IMG/VR virus record: IMGVR_UViG_3300039210_000318
Coordinates: 1 to 64,000 of that record
Length of the DNA stretch: 64,000 nucleotides
Strand: one strand, 5' to 3'
Origin: a virus
Shown here: positions 4,585-55,450 of the stretch, in pieces
Numbering within the stretch: position 1 is the stretch's first letter
Layout: each line of letters opens with the position of its first letter
Position numbers and translations under genes: made by a program
The notes under the pieces: generated by a model
What the model was told of the DNA's origin: nothing
The model's database searches: none
What the model saw: only the letters and a program-made list of their open reading frames with translations

Positions 4585-4776
4585 ATGCTGCTGGGGGGGG
4601 GCGACCCCTACCCCGGCGACGGCCCAATGCCCCATTTGGAAGCCTGGCAGTTGTGCCGCGACTTTCACTGGACGTACCAGCAGTACATCGAGACGCCTAT
4701 CGACGTGCTCGAAGTGTTCGCCCTCTACAACGCCGTGCGCTCCGGCGTTGAGGCCATCCCCGCCGACCAGCGTTGA
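4585..4776 (+). CDS. tail assembly chaperone T segment (gpGT C-terminus)
   Basis: 63 residues from the first in-frame ATG, though it is probably made mainly as the C-terminal part of a -1 frameshift fusion from the gene at 4187. The pattern LEAWQLCRDFHWTYQQYIETPIDVLEVFALYNAVRS, with conserved-looking Trp/Tyr and aliphatic helices, is typical of the T part that recruits tail tube subunits. An eight-G run lies at its start (about 4593-4600). Confidence 0.7.
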   Translation: MLLGGGDPYPGDGPMPHLEAWQLCRDFHWTYQQYIETPIDVLEVFALYNAVRSGVEAIPADQR

Positions 4777-26118: not shown

Positions 26119-26391
26119 CTACGCTGCGGTAGAGGTCGCACCTGGCCGGCGCCGGATGGGGTTTCCCTCGGCCGCGCGCCGCCTGGCATAGTCGATCTTC
26201 CAGCAGCGGGGGGAGCAGTAGCGGCGGTGCCGGCCAAGCTCCTCCATAATCTCCGTGCCGCACACGACACAGTTAGTTGGCTGCTTGGCGCGTGGTACCG
26301 CGCGCAGCACGTTGCCCGCCATGGCCCGGTCGGACAATGAGGGCGGCGGCGGCGGCGCGGGCAGCGCCGCCGAGGCAGAACGAACAGGCAT
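26119..26391 (-). CDS. small zinc-finger protein
   Basis: 90 residues using the ATG at 26391, which follows GGAAAAGGAG. A Pro-rich N-terminal third is followed by CVVCGTEI ... RRYCSPRCW, a four-cysteine finger, and a basic tail. It could bind DNA. Divergently placed to the Xre regulator. Confidence 0.65.
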   Translation of the reverse strand: MPVRSASAALPAPPPPPSLSDRAMAGNVLRAVPRAKQPTNCVVCGTEIMEELGRHRRYCSPRCWKIDYARRRAAEGNPIRRRPGATSTAA

Positions 26392-26452
26392 AGCCGGCTC
26401 CTTTTCCTGGGTAGCTTCACCCCTCGCGCCGGACTCGCCCCGTCGCGTCGGG

Positions 26453-26472
26453 ATACTGGTACGGTACAGTAT
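26453..26472 (-). promoter_or_regulatory. operator variant ATACTG-N8-CAGTAT
   Basis: Arms ATACTG and CAGTAT pair exactly. It lies between the leftward zinc-finger gene and the rightward Xre gene, with TATCCC as a possible leftward -10. The second operator of this divergent region is at 26529. Confidence 0.6.
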
Positions 26473-26522
26473 CCGCACCTGCAATATCGTACCATCAATG
26501 CTCCCTTCCCCCTCTACCGCGC

Positions 26523-26551
26523 TGGTATATGCCGTTACGTTACGGTATGCT
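26523..26551 (+). promoter_or_regulatory. operator-promoter of the Xre regulator
   Basis: ATGCCG-TTACGTTA-CGGTAT (26529-26548) with -10 TATGCT (26546-26551); the -35 is weak. Gives the Xre-initiator-loader operon its own operator, as expected for autoregulation. Confidence 0.65.
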
Positions 26552-26612
26552 CAGGACAGCGCGGGGTATGAGGTTGCGCGCGCAGCCGTCCCGCGCGGAA
26601 AGGAAGGTACCC

Positions 26613-27014
26613 ATGACCTTCGCAGAGGCATTGGCTATGGCGCGGCGCCGGGAAGGCTTAAGCCAGTTAGCCCTGGGGGCGCACGCCGGCGTGGCGGCGT
26701 CCCACCTCAACCGACTGGAGCACGGCTACCGCACCGCACCCGGGCCCGCCTTCGTCGCTGCCCTGGTCGGCGTGCTCGGAGACGAGTATGCGCCGCTGCT
26801 CTACTGGACAGCCGGCCTGCTGCCCCCCGCCTGGCGCCGCTTACACCCCGGCGACCCGACCCTCTCGGCGGTCGCCACCTTCCTCTGCGTGCCGCTACGC
26901 GATGCGGGCGAGTTGCAAGACTTCCGGAGCGTCGTAGAAGCCATGGTCCTGCATTGGGGCAGCGCTCCCGCGGTACCCGTGGAGCAACTCGGCCAGGCGG
27001 CGCTGCCGCTATGA
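26613..27014 (+). CDS. Xre-family HTH regulator
   Basis: 133 residues. MTFAEALAMARRREGLSQLALGAHAGVAASHLNRLEHGYRTAPGPAFVAALVGVLGD is a classic lambda-repressor-like HTH (GLSQLALGAHAGVAASHLNRLE). The C-terminal half is helical with no peptidase dyad, so no LexA-like self-cleavage is expected. It overlaps the replication initiator by 4 nt. As the only Xre protein in the window, located next to two operators, it is the best candidate to bind the ATACCG palindromes. This link is an inference. Confidence 0.8.
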   Translation: MTFAEALAMARRREGLSQLALGAHAGVAASHLNRLEHGYRTAPGPAFVAALVGVLGDEYAPLLYWTAGLLPPAWRRLHPGDPTLSAVATFLCVPLRDAGELQDFRSVVEAMVLHWGSAPAVPVEQLGQAALPL

Positions 27015-28051
27015 GCGCAGCCGACCAAGATAGCCGACACGGCAGCCGATTGGAGCATAGTCTCGCCCTGCGCCGACTCGGCCAGGGTATGGACGCCCTC
27101 TCCCTCTCTACCGCACCGGCGCGCCAACTCCGGCTCCTGGCCGTGCTGATGCGCGAGACCTGGGCCTGGAATACCGACGACGTCGGCCTCTCCCTCACCG
27201 AGATTGCGGAGCGCACCGCGCTGGGACGGTCGCATATCACCCGGGCCCTGCGCGCCTTAGAGGCGGCCGGCGTGTGTCGGCGCACGGCCGAGGGCAACAC
27301 CAGAGGGCAGAGCCGGCCACGCAATCGCTACACCATGCACCCGCCGGAAGACTGGCTCCCCCCGTTTCTACCCCAGGGTACGAACCGTACCCTGGGGCCA
27401 GGGTACGAACCGGCCACTACCCCAGGGTACGAACCGTACCCAGCCCCAGGGTACGGCAGCACGCCTGACCCAGGGTACGGTTCGTACCCTACACCCATGG
27501 TTAACCATGACACCTTAACCATGAGAGAGAACCATGGGGCCGACCCCGGCGCAGCCCCGGCTGCGCGGCCTCCCCTTTCCGCGCAATTGCGTTTGACGGA
27601 GCACCGGGCGGCGGGAGCAGCCGTCGACCAGGCCCAGGCCCTTGCCCTGGCCCACTGGCTGGCCGAGGAAGTGCAGCACGGCAGCGAGCCGCTGGACGAT
27701 GCTGCGCTGCTGCAGGAAGCCGGGCATGCCGCCGTGCTCATCGCCCGCTTCCACGGCTACCTCGGCGTCGTCGCGCATTGCCAGGAACGCCTCAAGGAAC
27801 GCCGCCGCCGGCCGCTGCGGTTGGCTCACGTCGTTGCGGATCTTGCTCGCGCCGAGCGGCGCGTGGCCCCGGCTCTAGAAAGGGCAACCACCCCCCATGC
27901 AAAATCTCAACAGCCAGTGGCGCCAGATTGGTACGCTGGTACCGCAGCAGACTATGCCCGCGACGTTGAGGAGCGCGAAGCCTACCGCGAACGGCAGCGC
28001 GTCGCCTTCGACGCCAGCATGGCCGACCAGGACGCCCGCGCCACCGGCTGA
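27011..28051 (+). CDS. replication initiator with winged-helix domain
   Basis: 346 residues. Residues 30-110 are a winged helix (RQLRLLAVLMRETWAWNTDDVGLSLTEIAERTALGRSHITRALRALEAAGVCRR). A proline/glycine/tyrosine repeat tract follows (PGYEP/PGYGS, about 120-162), whose DNA is the iteron array at 27371-27485. The C-terminal half is helical and charged. Gene order (regulator, initiator, DnaC-like loader) and intragenic iterons match lambda O-type initiators that bind an origin inside their own gene. Confidence 0.7.
   Translation: MSAADQDSRHGSRLEHSLALRRLGQGMDALSLSTAPARQLRLLAVLMRETWAWNTDDVGLSLTEIAERTALGRSHITRALRALEAAGVCRRTAEGNTRGQSRPRNRYTMHPPEDWLPPFLPQGTNRTLGPGYEPATTPGYEPYPAPGYGSTPDPGYGSYPTPMVNHDTLTMRENHGADPGAAPAARPPLSAQLRLTEHRAAGAAVDQAQALALAHWLAEEVQHGSEPLDDAALLQEAGHAAVLIARFHGYLGVVAHCQERLKERRRRPLRLAHVVADLARAERRVAPALERATTPHAKSQQPVAPDWYAGTAADYARDVEEREAYRERQRVAFDASMADQDARATG
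27371..27535 (+). repeat. candidate replication origin: iterons inside the initiator gene
   Basis: Five copies of CCAGGGTACGaaCCG-like sites start near 27373, 27398, 27422, 27447 and 27471 (period about 25); the last two are degenerate. They are followed by an A/T-richer stretch with ATGGTTAACCAT (27496-27507) and two further AACCATG copies, a possible unwinding element. The layout parallels the lambda origin within gene O. Confidence 0.65.
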
Positions 28052-28796: not shown

Positions 28797-28825
28797 TTTG
28801 ATATACCGTAACGCTACGGTATGCT
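28797..28825 (+). promoter_or_regulatory. operator-promoter before the 28880 gene
   Basis: ATACCG-TAACGCTA-CGGTAT (28803-28822), -10 TATGCT (28820-28825), -35 TTTGAT/TTGATA. Confidence 0.75.
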
Positions 28826-28879: not shown

Positions 28880-29584
28880 ATGGCCCTCCCAGACGGTTTC
28901 CCAGCGGTCCCCCTGACCCCGGAGGAGGAGGAAGACGTCGACCTCTACGAGCGGTACGACGTCATGCTCCACATCCGCGAGCGTATCACCGGGGGGGTCC
29001 CGGCGAACCCGGAACTGCTCTCCGGTTTCCTGCGCGGTAAAGGCATCAGCAGCGAGCAGGCCCAGGCCGAACTGGCAGCCAAGATGGCGTCCGATATGGA
29101 CGCAACCTTGACGGAGGAAATCGAAAGCAAGACCTCCGTCTTCTACCGCTCCGGCGGCACCGGTGGCCCGCTATGCACCAAGGAGTTTGCCATCAAGGCA
29201 TGCTTGAAAGAAGCCGGCGTAGCGTCCGGTTACATGAGCGCCGGGGGAATCCGGCAGCCCATGCAGCATGGGGTGTTCATCAAGCCTCTGCACATCTTGC
29301 TGCGACGCGAGGACGGCAGTTTCTACCTGAAGGCTGATGGCACCGACGAGAAGGTGACCCACACCATGGGACCGCGCGGCCCGGTGAGTGGCATCAGCCG
29401 CTTCGAATATGTGCGCGCGCCGTACCTGCGCTTCGAGATCTGGGTCCGCGCGTCCTACAAGCAGAAGCCGACCGAGCAGCAGCTACACATCATGCTGCGC
29501 ACGGCCAAAGAAATTGGCCTGGGAGCCAACCGGACCATGAGCGAGGGGAAGTTTGACCTCCTCCACTTCGCGGCGCTCGCATGA
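28880..29584 (+). CDS. conserved-looking protein with RAMP-like glycine loop
   Basis: 234 residues with its own operator-promoter and a GAAAGGCA site. The N-terminal 100 residues are helical and acidic. The middle (GGPLCTKEFAIKACLKEAG) and the end (RFEIWVRASYKQKPTEQQLHIMLRTAKEIGLGANRTMSEGKFDLL) have the spacing of a ferredoxin-like fold closed by a G-rich loop, as in RNA-binding RAMP proteins. That similarity is by eye only. It directly abuts the unusual array starting at 29585, which makes it the first candidate to act on it. Confidence 0.7.
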   Translation: MALPDGFPAVPLTPEEEEDVDLYERYDVMLHIRERITGGVPANPELLSGFLRGKGISSEQAQAELAAKMASDMDATLTEEIESKTSVFYRSGGTGGPLCTKEFAIKACLKEAGVASGYMSAGGIRQPMQHGVFIKPLHILLRREDGSFYLKADGTDEKVTHTMGPRGPVSGISRFEYVRAPYLRFEIWVRASYKQKPTEQQLHIMLRTAKEIGLGANRTMSEGKFDLLHFAALA

Positions 29585-31071
29585 GCGCCGCCACCACCCG
29601 CGCCAGCGCGACTAACCTGACCAAACCACCCCGTTCCCAGGCGACTATCCCGTCCAAGTCCTGGCGCACCGGAGCGACTAGCCATCCCTCGCCCTTCCCC
29701 GGCGACCATCCGTTGCATGCCTTACCCTTCCCCGCCAGCGCGACGAGCCAGTCCATTCCACAACCAATCGACCATCCGTTCCACGACCTTGCCATCCTAT
29801 GCGACGTGCCGAGCCTATCCGAATCATTCCCGCGCGACGAACCCAACCATGCCTTCCCGGGCCCGCGCAACGAACCTGGCCGAACCCTCCCTGGCCGCCC
29901 CTGCGCGACTACCCGACCCGGACCCTTCCAATCCGGTGTGACAATCCAGACCTTTGCATTCCCCGGCGACTATCCGTTCCAGACCTTGCTCATCCGTCCC
30001 GCGCGACAATGCCAGCCTATCCTCGACGCCGAGACGAGCCGATCCTATCCCATGCTCATCATTCCCTGCCGGGGCGACTATCCCTCCCTACCCACCTCAC
30101 GCCGGTGCGACTTTCCACGTCATGCCCAATCAGGACTCAGCGACTTTCCGTCCCAAGACAGCCCGACCCCCGGCGACAACCCTAAACCAGCCGGGCCAAT
30201 CCGGGGCGACAACCCAGACCTTGCCCACCCTCGCCGTCGTGACATGCCTACCCTGCCAGGCCCACGCGACATTCCAACCCTTTCCTTATCCGGCCAGCGC
30301 GACACACCTAGCCACCCCCGACCGCCGCGACGATCCGGCCCTTGCCACACCGGCGCGGAGCGACATGCCACGCCTGTAGCACGCCAGTCCATGGCGACTA
30401 TGCCGGCCACTCCCGCCCGATACTTTCCTGGGCGACAGTCCACCCTACGCCTCTCCCTGCCCTGCCCTGGAGACGGCCCAAGCCAGCGCCACCCTCCCCA
30501 TGCCATCGGGACAAGCCAAACCCCCCCTTGCCTGGACAGGGCGACTTCCCAGCCCATCCCCACGCAGACCCAGGCGACGATCCCGACCAACCCCATACCC
30601 GGCGACAAGCCTCATCCATCCGGACCACTCCTTGGCGACTTCCCATTCCACCCCCTCCCAGGCCAACCCGGTGCGACAAGCCCGCCCGGTCTAATCCTCT
30701 CCCCGGCGACAAGCCGCCTCGATCCAAGCCTCCTCGCTACGCACCGGCGCGACAATCCTTATCCCACCTGCCCAACGCGACGCGACTGTCCATCTCACTC
30801 CAACCCCGCTCCCCCCTACGCGACGAGCCAAGCTAGCACCATCCAAGCCACGGCGACTACCCATCCCCATACGAGACACCCCAAGCCCGGCCCGCGCGAC
30901 GAGCCTATGCGAACCCATCCCTGGCGACGAACCCAGCCATGCCTTCCCTACCCTGTCCACGGCGACGAACCCGCACCCGCCTTCCCCAGCCATCGTGACG
31001 ATCCCGTCCAAGCCTTCCCTGACCGGACCTCTGTGACAACCCGCGCCAAGCCACGCACCCCTACCCTGGGG
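29585..31071. repeat. GCGAC-anchored array of NNNCC pentamers
   Basis: A 1.45-kb tract with no convincing gene. It consists of 44 anchors (GCGAC, 35 exact; the rest one-base variants such as GTGAC or GAGAC) at 29608, 29641, 29674, 29702, 29740 and so on to 31033. After each anchor come three to seven pentamers that mostly end in CC or C, then three bases, then the next anchor. Of 43 anchor distances, 19 are 33, nine are 38, eight are 28 and three are 43; the exceptions are 37, 34, 27 and one doublet of 5. Anchors fall in all reading frames. On the minus strand the units read as (GGNNN)n. See findings. Confidence 0.85.
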
Positions 31072-31102
31072 GCCATCAATAGCAAAAGGAAAGGAACCAC
31101 CA

Positions 31103-32155
31103 ATGGGAGACAAGACCTCCATCGCCTGGACAGCCTCCGTAGACGCCAGCGGCGCGACCACGCCGGGCTCAACCTGGAACCCGCTGCGCGGCACGGTGGG
31201 CAATTGGACGTGCGTGCGCTGGTCTGCCGGCTGCGAGCACTGTTACGCCGAGAGCCTTAACAAGCGCTTCGGTGGGCCCGGCTACACCACCGGCGCCGAT
31301 ACCCCGCGCCTGGACGAGCGCATCCTGGAGCAGCCGCTACGCTGGCGGCTGCCGCGCAAGGTCTTCGTCGGCAGCATGACCGACCTGTTTGAGCAGCGCA
31401 TCCCCGACGAGTGGATCGCCCGAGTGTGGGCGGTCATGGCGATGGCGTCCGGTCACACCTTCCAGGTGCTGACCAAACGCCCCGAGCGCATGTGCCTCCT
31501 GCTCGGCAGCAGCACGTTCCAAGCCCTCGTCACCCGGGCCCTGCACGAGCACCGCCACCCCAAGGGGTGGTACCTGGAGGGGGTGGGCGCCTGGCCGCTG
31601 ACCAATGTCTGGTGCGGCACCAGCATCGAGCAGGACCGTTGGACCGGCCGCGCCGACGTCCTTCTGCAGACCCCGGCGGCGGTACGGTTCCTGTCCCTGG
31701 AGCCATTGCTAGAGCCGTTGCCCTCGCTGCGGCTGGGGGGCCTGGACCACCTGGACCGCGAGTACCGCAGCCAGATTGGCAAGGGCATGTTCAATAGCGA
31801 TCAGGTCGATAGCCTGCGCCGACCGGTCATCGATTGGGTGATAGTAGGCGGCGAGTCCGGACACGCCCCGGACTCCCGTTCTCTGGTAGAGGCCTGTGAT
31901 CACACGTTCGGCGTGGTCTTTGTCAACGGCGTGCAGCAAATCAGCATCGCCCCGCCGAAGGACTGCCTAATCTGCTACGGCACCGGTTGGCGTCCGAAGC
32001 CGTGGGCCGAGAAGGAGGCAAAGCGCCTGCGTCTCTTGACACACCTGGCCGATGGGGCGTTCTTTTTTAAGCAGTGGGGGGGACCGCGCAGCCATTCCGG
32101 CGGTCGCATGCTGGTCGGCCGGGAGTGGTTGGAGTTCCCTAAGGGGACGCTATGA
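31103..32155 (+). CDS. phage Gp37/Gp68-family (DUF5131) protein
   Basis: 350 residues. The start MGDKTSIAWTASVDASG, the cysteine motif CVRWSAGCEHCYAESLNKRF (near residues 36-50), VFVGSMTDLFEQRIPDEWI, FQVLTKRPERM, NVWCGTSIEQ, FLSLEPLL and WVIVGGESG are the ordered signatures of this widespread phage family. The cysteine spacing resembles radical SAM iron-sulfur sites, but the biochemical role is not established. AAAGGAA lies upstream of the ATG. Confidence 0.9.
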   Translation: MGDKTSIAWTASVDASGATTPGSTWNPLRGTVGNWTCVRWSAGCEHCYAESLNKRFGGPGYTTGADTPRLDERILEQPLRWRLPRKVFVGSMTDLFEQRIPDEWIARVWAVMAMASGHTFQVLTKRPERMCLLLGSSTFQALVTRALHEHRHPKGWYLEGVGAWPLTNVWCGTSIEQDRWTGRADVLLQTPAAVRFLSLEPLLEPLPSLRLGGLDHLDREYRSQIGKGMFNSDQVDSLRRPVIDWVIVGGESGHAPDSRSLVEACDHTFGVVFVNGVQQISIAPPKDCLICYGTGWRPKPWAEKEAKRLRLLTHLADGAFFFKQWGGPRSHSGGRMLVGREWLEFPKGTL

Positions 32156-50973: not shown

Positions 50974-51103
50974 GGCGAGGCCGGCTTTTACGGCTGGGAA
51001 ACGAGGCAAAACCTTTTCAGCCGCATGTGGCTCATTTTCACCAGAAAGTTTCACTACAGTTTGGCCTGCCCAAAAAGCCCCCCACAGCAAGCATCGCCGC
51101 GCT

Positions 51104-51330
51104 TGCTCGCTCCTCTCGCCGGACGCTCCCTCGGTCTGGCGCTCGCTCCCTCCCCTCTCGCCGGACGCTCCCTCGCTCCCTCGGCTGGACGCTTGCTCGG
51201 TCGGCGCTCGCTCCCTCGGCTCTCCGCTCGCCGCTCGCTGGCTGCTCTCCGGTAGCTCCCTCGGCTCTCCGCTCGCCGGCTCGGCTCTCGGCTGGCTCGC
51301 TGCTCTCCGCTCGCTGTCTGGCGTCCCTTG
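51104..51330. repeat. CTCGCT/CTCGG-rich low-complexity tract
   Basis: Degenerate repeats of GCTCGCTCCCTCGGCTCTCC-type units. All frames give repetitive Ser/Arg/Leu or Glu/Arg/Gly strings, so it is treated as non-coding. Precedes repeat copy B. Confidence 0.6.
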
Positions 51331-55196: not shown

Positions 55197-55229
55197 CCTC
55201 GTTTCAGCCCCATGCGCGCCGGCCGCGGC

Positions 55230-55450
55230 CGGCGCGCAGCCGAGCGACCTACCGGTGCGACCGGACCAGCGAGCCAGCGCCGGCCAGGCGAGCGTCCGGC
55301 GAGAGCGACCTACCGGAGAGCCAGGGAGCGACCAGCGCCAGCGACCTACCGGCGCGACCGTCCGGCCCAGCGAGCTACCAGCGGGAGCGACCGTGCATCG
55401 AGAGCGAGCTACCGGCATGCCAGGGAGCTACCGGCGCGGCCGGCGCCGGA
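55230..55450. repeat. GCGACCTACCGG-rich low-complexity tract
   Basis: Many degenerate GAGCGACCTACCGG / GCGAGCTACC units of irregular length. Frames give Arg/Ala/Pro/Ser strings only. Lies just before repeat copy C, as the tract at 51104 lies before copy B. Confidence 0.6.

Follow-up and report, generated by a model that had tools for sequence, protein, structure and literature searches.

RAMP gene and adjoining pentamer array

The window analyzed here is a stretch of 64,000 nucleotides, positions 1 to 64,000 of the IMG/VR virus record IMGVR_UViG_3300039210_000318. Near its middle lies a gene encoding a protein of the RAMP family, which is followed on the same strand by a long noncoding array of pentamers (Table 1). 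The array ends about 40 bases short of the start of a DUF5131 gene (31103).

Table 1. Features of the RAMP-array locus, in window coordinates
Feature	Positions	Strand	Description
Putative sigma-70-like promoter, weak	28798..28825	+	TTGATA-16-TATGCT; 5' of the RAMP gene; 1 found versus 0.4 expected
RAMP-family protein, Vipr-like, 234 aa	28880..29584	+	C-terminal glycine-rich loop GLGANRTMSEGKF
GCGAC-(NNNCC)n-NNN array, ~40 units	29585..31065	+	C-rich strand is RAMP-sense; starts right after the RAMP stop codon
Example complete unit (first), 33 nt	29608..29640	+	GCGAC TAACC TGACC AAACC ACCCC GTTCC CAG

Each pentamer of the array consists of three free bases followed by CC. Unit length is 8 + 5m, with m mostly 4 to 7, and anchors lie 28 + 5n apart; the anchor that resets the phase is an 8-nt NNNGCGAC element. 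The initial annotation of this DNA had described a strand-asymmetric 5-base periodicity punctuated by anchors, and the autocorrelation check that it proposed upheld this description. The tract at 29585-31062 contains 126 pairs of CC dinucleotides at lag 5, compared with 66.9 ± 6.9 in 1,000 dinucleotide-preserving shuffles (maximum, 92; z 8.5). The best other stretch of the same length in the window has 39 such pairs on the plus strand and 33 on the minus strand, and the medians for same-length stretches elsewhere in the window are 18 and 13, respectively. Exact copies of GCGAC number 35 in the tract and 4 in shuffles, and 25 of the 34 spacings between successive exact copies are 28, 33, 38, or 43 nt (0.04 expected from shuffles). 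The most common of these is 33 (13 times), followed by 28 and 38 (5 times each) and 43 (twice); the remaining spacings are 5, 34, and 37, together with longer gaps that are bridged by variant anchors. The 44 anchors originally picked by hand proved to be a fair subset, since a looser anchor rule places 38 of 51 spacings in the window array at 3 mod 5. The start of the array had been set at 29608; the tract was confirmed, but its true start is earlier, as 29585-29607 consists of four pentamers and three bases (GCGCC GCCAC CACCC GCGCC AGC) that lie flush with the upstream stop codon. An Rfam scan of the window and a BLASTN search of phage records with the window array returned no match.

The RAMP-like loop that had been noticed in the neighboring gene was correctly recognized, and within the family its G-x-G..R....G pattern is invariant. 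The window protein falls into no family of Pfam, NCBIfam, or PHROGs, a search for close relatives with this protein alone as the query found none, and a sequence search of the PDB gave weak similarity, with Csm4 at an E value of 1. An AF2 model (14 relatives) had a mean pLDDT of 78.7 and a pTM of 0.74. The best Foldseek match to this model was Cmr-beta (6s6b_I; E = 9.7e-8), Csm3 chains followed at E values of ~1e-6, and VIA aligned the model with Csm3 chains at a Z score of 12.9 over 160 to 170 residues. The predicted fold of the protein is thus of the Cas7/Csm3 type. Family members also show weak sequence similarity to Csm4, a Cas5-type RAMP: the PADLOC Csm4 models match 9 of 14 members (best E value, 1.9e-6) and match the window protein at an E value of 0.037. 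Unlike Csm4, however, the RAMP of this family stands alone with a pentamer array and is not part of a Csm operon.

Recurrence of the array and its association with the RAMP gene

A search of phage and host genomes with the anchor-pentamer pattern, as suggested in the initial annotation, recovered the same type of array from 14 other records. Scanning IMG/VR for two anchors plus pentamers returned 11 contigs, and a second pattern gave further ones. Among 84,980 genomes of bacteria and archaea, the same pattern had 25 matches, of which one was a true array, located on a groundwater betaproteobacterial MAG contig (L022). The set of arrays defined by DNA pattern therefore comprises 15 records (the window, L008 to L016, L018, L022, and L047 to L049). 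Two further candidates, L045 and L050, were dropped as collagen-like Gly-X-Y coding repeats.

A RAMP gene adjoins the array in 14 of these 15 records, the exception being L010, in which the array lies at the contig end; on the L008 contig, the gene is truncated to its final 28 residues. The array-adjacent genes of the window, L011, L012, L014, L016, and L018 have the C-terminal glycine-rich loop in common, and a RAMP-family HMM was built from six of these array-adjacent genes. It detected the family beside most arrays and at none of the chance-match loci; no RAMP was found at chance pattern matches without an array. The strongest point for the pairing is that RAMPs found by protein search alone (L059 to L062, L065, L067, L171, L176, and the cultured Microcystis phage Mae-JY09) have an array beside them in 9 of 9 cases. 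When neighboring genes were clustered, no protein family other than the RAMP neighbored the array in more than three lineages, whereas the RAMP did so in 13. No phage turned up in which the array lay among other genes and a RAMP was lacking. The RAMP is thus the likely partner of the array. The initial annotation was right to think of a lattice whose protein has a 5-nt step, but the Rad52-type and SSB proteins that it suggested are not the likely partners, because only the RAMP is conserved beside the array across lineages.

Both parts are present on 23 contigs that are phage or phage-like; 22 of these are IMG/VR records or a cultured phage, and the system is mainly phage-borne. It is also rare, with one cultured phage among 50,697 records and 1 positive among 398 Pseudomonadota genomes, the one already known. 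In the 23 contigs, the C-rich strand of the main array is the RAMP-coding strand. Lineages differ in whether the array lies 3' or 5' of the RAMP gene, and in one lineage it flanks the gene on both sides. Arrays often start at the exact stop codon of the preceding gene, which fits an operon transcript and is no proof of one. In L176, the RAMP stop codon and the array are separated by a hairpin with a T-run after it (4618-4692), and a second array begins after 5940; if the hairpin is a terminator, as is possible, it would argue against simple read-through in this phage. In one phage group (G003, G008, G009, and G016; L063, L064, L068, and L069), a NeuB-like protein of the sialic acid synthase type is encoded just 3' of the RAMP, and more sugar-metabolism-like genes come after the RAMP, all as annotated by eye.

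Array content across lineages

The information content of the five pentamer positions is 0.04, 0.01, 0.09, 1.02, and 1.74 bits (928 pentamers from well-phased units). Among anchor spacings of at most 60 nt in all arrays, 182 of 257 are 3 mod 5, with modes at 33, 28, and 38, and the anchor is GCGAC, TCGAC, or CCGAC depending on the lineage. A reading of NNN as whole codons, considered for its codon-like position composition, was ruled out, as stops are not avoided and TGA is in excess. The content of the units turns over rapidly. In G008 and G009 (L052 and L053), the RAMPs differ at 3 of 216 residues and the arrays share 1 identical unit among 14 and 8, respectively; G005 and G021 have no units in common, and G013 and G014 have 4. 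The array was rightly judged not to be a tandem duplication. Variable positions nearly free of information, combined with unit turnover between near-identical RAMPs, favor guide sequence over the plain binding lattice or decoy that had been considered in the initial annotation, and a role in DNA packaging or replication, also considered there, found no support.

Comparison with VIPR and CRISPR-Cas systems

The initial annotation knew of no feature class to which the array would belong. However, phage systems that combine a RAMP with guide RNAs made of pentamers have been described in a 2026 preprint (PMC13142463) under the name VIPR (Viral Interference Programmable Repeat). According to its text, the guide RNAs that accompany the phage RAMP (Vipr) are built from YNNGG pentamers, the NN bases of each pair with DNA under a one-base skip, and the system is used against competing phages; SUSP1 and a P. 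fulva prophage are among the examples (PMC13142463). The canonical vrRNA described there has 9 to 16 pentamers and then a structured 3' tail, and there is an accessory gene, vap. Seven types have been published, and the text also allows for "a related consensus," "staggered arrays," and other architectures in other types (PMC13142463).

The system described here closely resembles VIPR in its logic, having a single phage RAMP gene, an adjacent long noncoding pentamer tract with conserved and hypervariable positions, and a minimal locus. The protein profiles match as well (hhalign of the RAMP profile against eight SUSP1-type Viprs, E = 1.6e-5, probability 79%; the family is also matched by Csm4 models). 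The window array has CC and NNN on the RAMP-sense strand where VIPR has GGY and NN, and it leaves three positions free instead of two; the YNNGG motif occurs on neither strand, as the sense strand reads NNNCC and the antisense strand reads GGNNN without the Y. In the canonical phages SUSP1/2, Medea1, LESphi2, UmaThurman, and ODay, the arrays are GGYNN and the G-rich strand is vipr-sense. Units here mostly contain 4 to 7 pentamers and are reset by the 8-nt element, in contrast to the 9 to 16 repeats of vrRNAs; the anatomy of the array includes no structured tail; and no second family is conserved beside the RAMP across lineages, so that there is no counterpart of vap. Because the motif, the unit length and tail, and the accessory gene all differ from the descriptions in the text of the preprint, we class the system as VIPR-like and not as canonical VIPR. 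The Gordonia phage UmaThurman (L079, 3080-3410) and phage ODay (L080, 2860-3040) carry long GGYNN arrays in which the phase is reset by 4-nt GGCA units, and the UmaThurman array is partly annotated as the protein gp40, which is probably a spurious gene.

With class 1 CRISPR-Cas systems, the locus shares a predicted Cas7-type fold and an array in which variable stretches alternate with a short element that stays constant; at 8 nt, this element is similar in length to the 5' handle of a crRNA. The locus differs in that the constant element of the array consists of 5 bases plus 3 variable ones and that no other cas gene family is conserved near the array. Identical repeats, unique contiguous spacers, and cas genes, which together define a CRISPR locus, were not found, and the NNNCC period runs through the would-be spacers. 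With every fifth base fixed, and usually the fourth as well, the units cannot be foreign DNA copied contiguously.

Proposed mechanism and alternative explanations

The recurrence of the pentamer array beside the RAMP gene suggests that the array most likely serves as a bank of gapped guide RNAs, and we consider it probable that the two form a compact, VIPR-like RNA-guided system of phages. In such a system, the RAMP gene and the array would be transcribed as a single operon, and the C-rich transcript would be coated or cut by the RAMP, with one protomer for each 5-nt NNNCC step. The protein would grip the conserved CC and display the variable NNN, and the 8-nt NNN-GCGAC element, as a handle or boundary, may mark off the units, which mostly contain 4 to 7 pentamers. 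These units would act as noncontiguous guides that bind DNA (or RNA) from phages or satellites in competition with the carrier and repress it.

The combination of a RAMP with gapped pentamer guides is already known (PMC13142463); what is new here is a variant of the pentamer array that differs from canonical VIPR as described in that text. It is conceivable, at somewhat less than even chances, that it represents a distinct RAMP-guided phage lineage with its own code (NNN triplets, CC gaps, and a GCGAC handle) lying outside the seven VIPR types as the text of the preprint presents them. If so, its code would be one for which a single protein suffices with no accessory and an 8-nt GCGAC handle recurs every 28 + 5n nt. 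Class 1 CRISPR has RAMP proteins at its core, and a lone RAMP beside a pentamer array that differs in motif, strand, and phasing element would mean that gapped, protein-stepped guide codes are diverse. It would offer a natural comparison of how RAMPs read RNA, GG versus CC and two versus three free bases, and it makes an unexplained noncoding tract of environmental phages directly testable.

The alternative that fares best, though we regard it as unlikely, is that the array functions through its antisense, G-rich RNA (GGNNN), with canonical VIPR guides encoded opposite the RAMP gene. NNNCC reads GGNNN on the complementary strand, the RNAs of canonical VIPR have the G-rich pattern GGYNN both in the text of the preprint (PMC13142463) and in the canonical phages listed above, and the hairpin and T-run of L176 would agree with this reading. 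However, in those phages the G-rich strand is vipr-sense, whereas here it is the C-rich strand that is RAMP-sense. A Y after GG requires a purine at pentamer position 3, yet this position is C or T in ~44% of pentamers in all arrays and in 57% of those in the window. Many arrays are also flush with genes on both sides, leaving few bases for an antisense promoter.

It is less probable still that the RAMP coats an RNA or single-stranded DNA lattice without guides, whether as a structural ribonucleoprotein or as a decoy or sponge that might, for instance, occupy class 1 CRISPR effectors of the host. A regular 5-nt motif beside a RAMP and the negative target searches described below are consistent with such a lattice, but it would need neither hypervariable NNN positions nor near-complete turnover of units between phages with almost identical RAMPs. 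A cis-acting mRNA element unrelated to the RAMP, such as a rut-like C-rich tract, an antitermination site, or a translation control element, appears very improbable. The sense RNA is C-rich and G-poor, it lies between codirectional genes, and the array does not fold more than shuffled sequence on either strand (z 0.95 for the sense RNA over a 500-nt stretch), all of which fits such an element; however, the array tracks the RAMP gene and no particular other gene, it may be 5' or 3' of the RAMP, and a rut site needs no precise anchor spacing. A repetitive protein-coding region can be dismissed: one plus-strand frame (29581-31260), which overlaps the upstream stop codon, runs uninterrupted across the window array, but the anchors fall in all three frames, as had been observed from the start, the 5-nt differences between units shift the frame, and stops interrupt each of the three plus-strand frames in the arrays of L008, L014, and L018, so that no conserved reading frame passes through the tract in these relatives and the window array is not a protein repeat.

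Several results weigh against the guide reading itself. Searches for gapped targets with single units and unit pairs, under skips of 0 to 4, gave no excess over triplet-shuffled guides in 0.37 to 1.73 Mb of phage-rich DNA, a set that confers low power and from which the real competitors are probably absent. Eight apparent target matches were discarded as an unmasked copy of the same array. An overlapping-guide test within clades gave no signal. A test of codon-phase coherence was negative, but it has no power because canonical VIPR arrays were negative too. The motif and strand are unlike the canonical GGY/NN, and the units, mostly of 4 to 7 pentamers, are shorter than the vrRNAs of the preprint's text (9 to 16 repeats; PMC13142463). 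Finally, the first 350 bases of contig G020 (L058) carry on the minus strand, opposite the main array and RAMP, an NNNCC-like periodic stretch without regular GCGAC anchors.

Other repetitive tracts in the window

Three other tracts of the window have repetitive sequence. The GC-rich intergenic region at 55220-55450 contains seven copies of GCGAC at spacings of 13, 48, 23, 13, 13, and 33, all of which are 3 mod 5; these words are built on AGCGACCTACCGG with strong inverted repeats flanking them, and the region has no NNNCC pentamers and no RAMP nearby. A pyrimidine-rich intergenic tract at 51100-51330 is composed of CGCTC, CCCTC, and GGCTCT words with loose periods of 4 and 20 to 22 bp. At 27371-27501, just 5' of a DnaC-like helicase-loader gene, a 24-bp tandem array of about five copies lies within the open reading frame at 26255-28051 and, in that frame, specifies a TPGYEPYP-like repeat.
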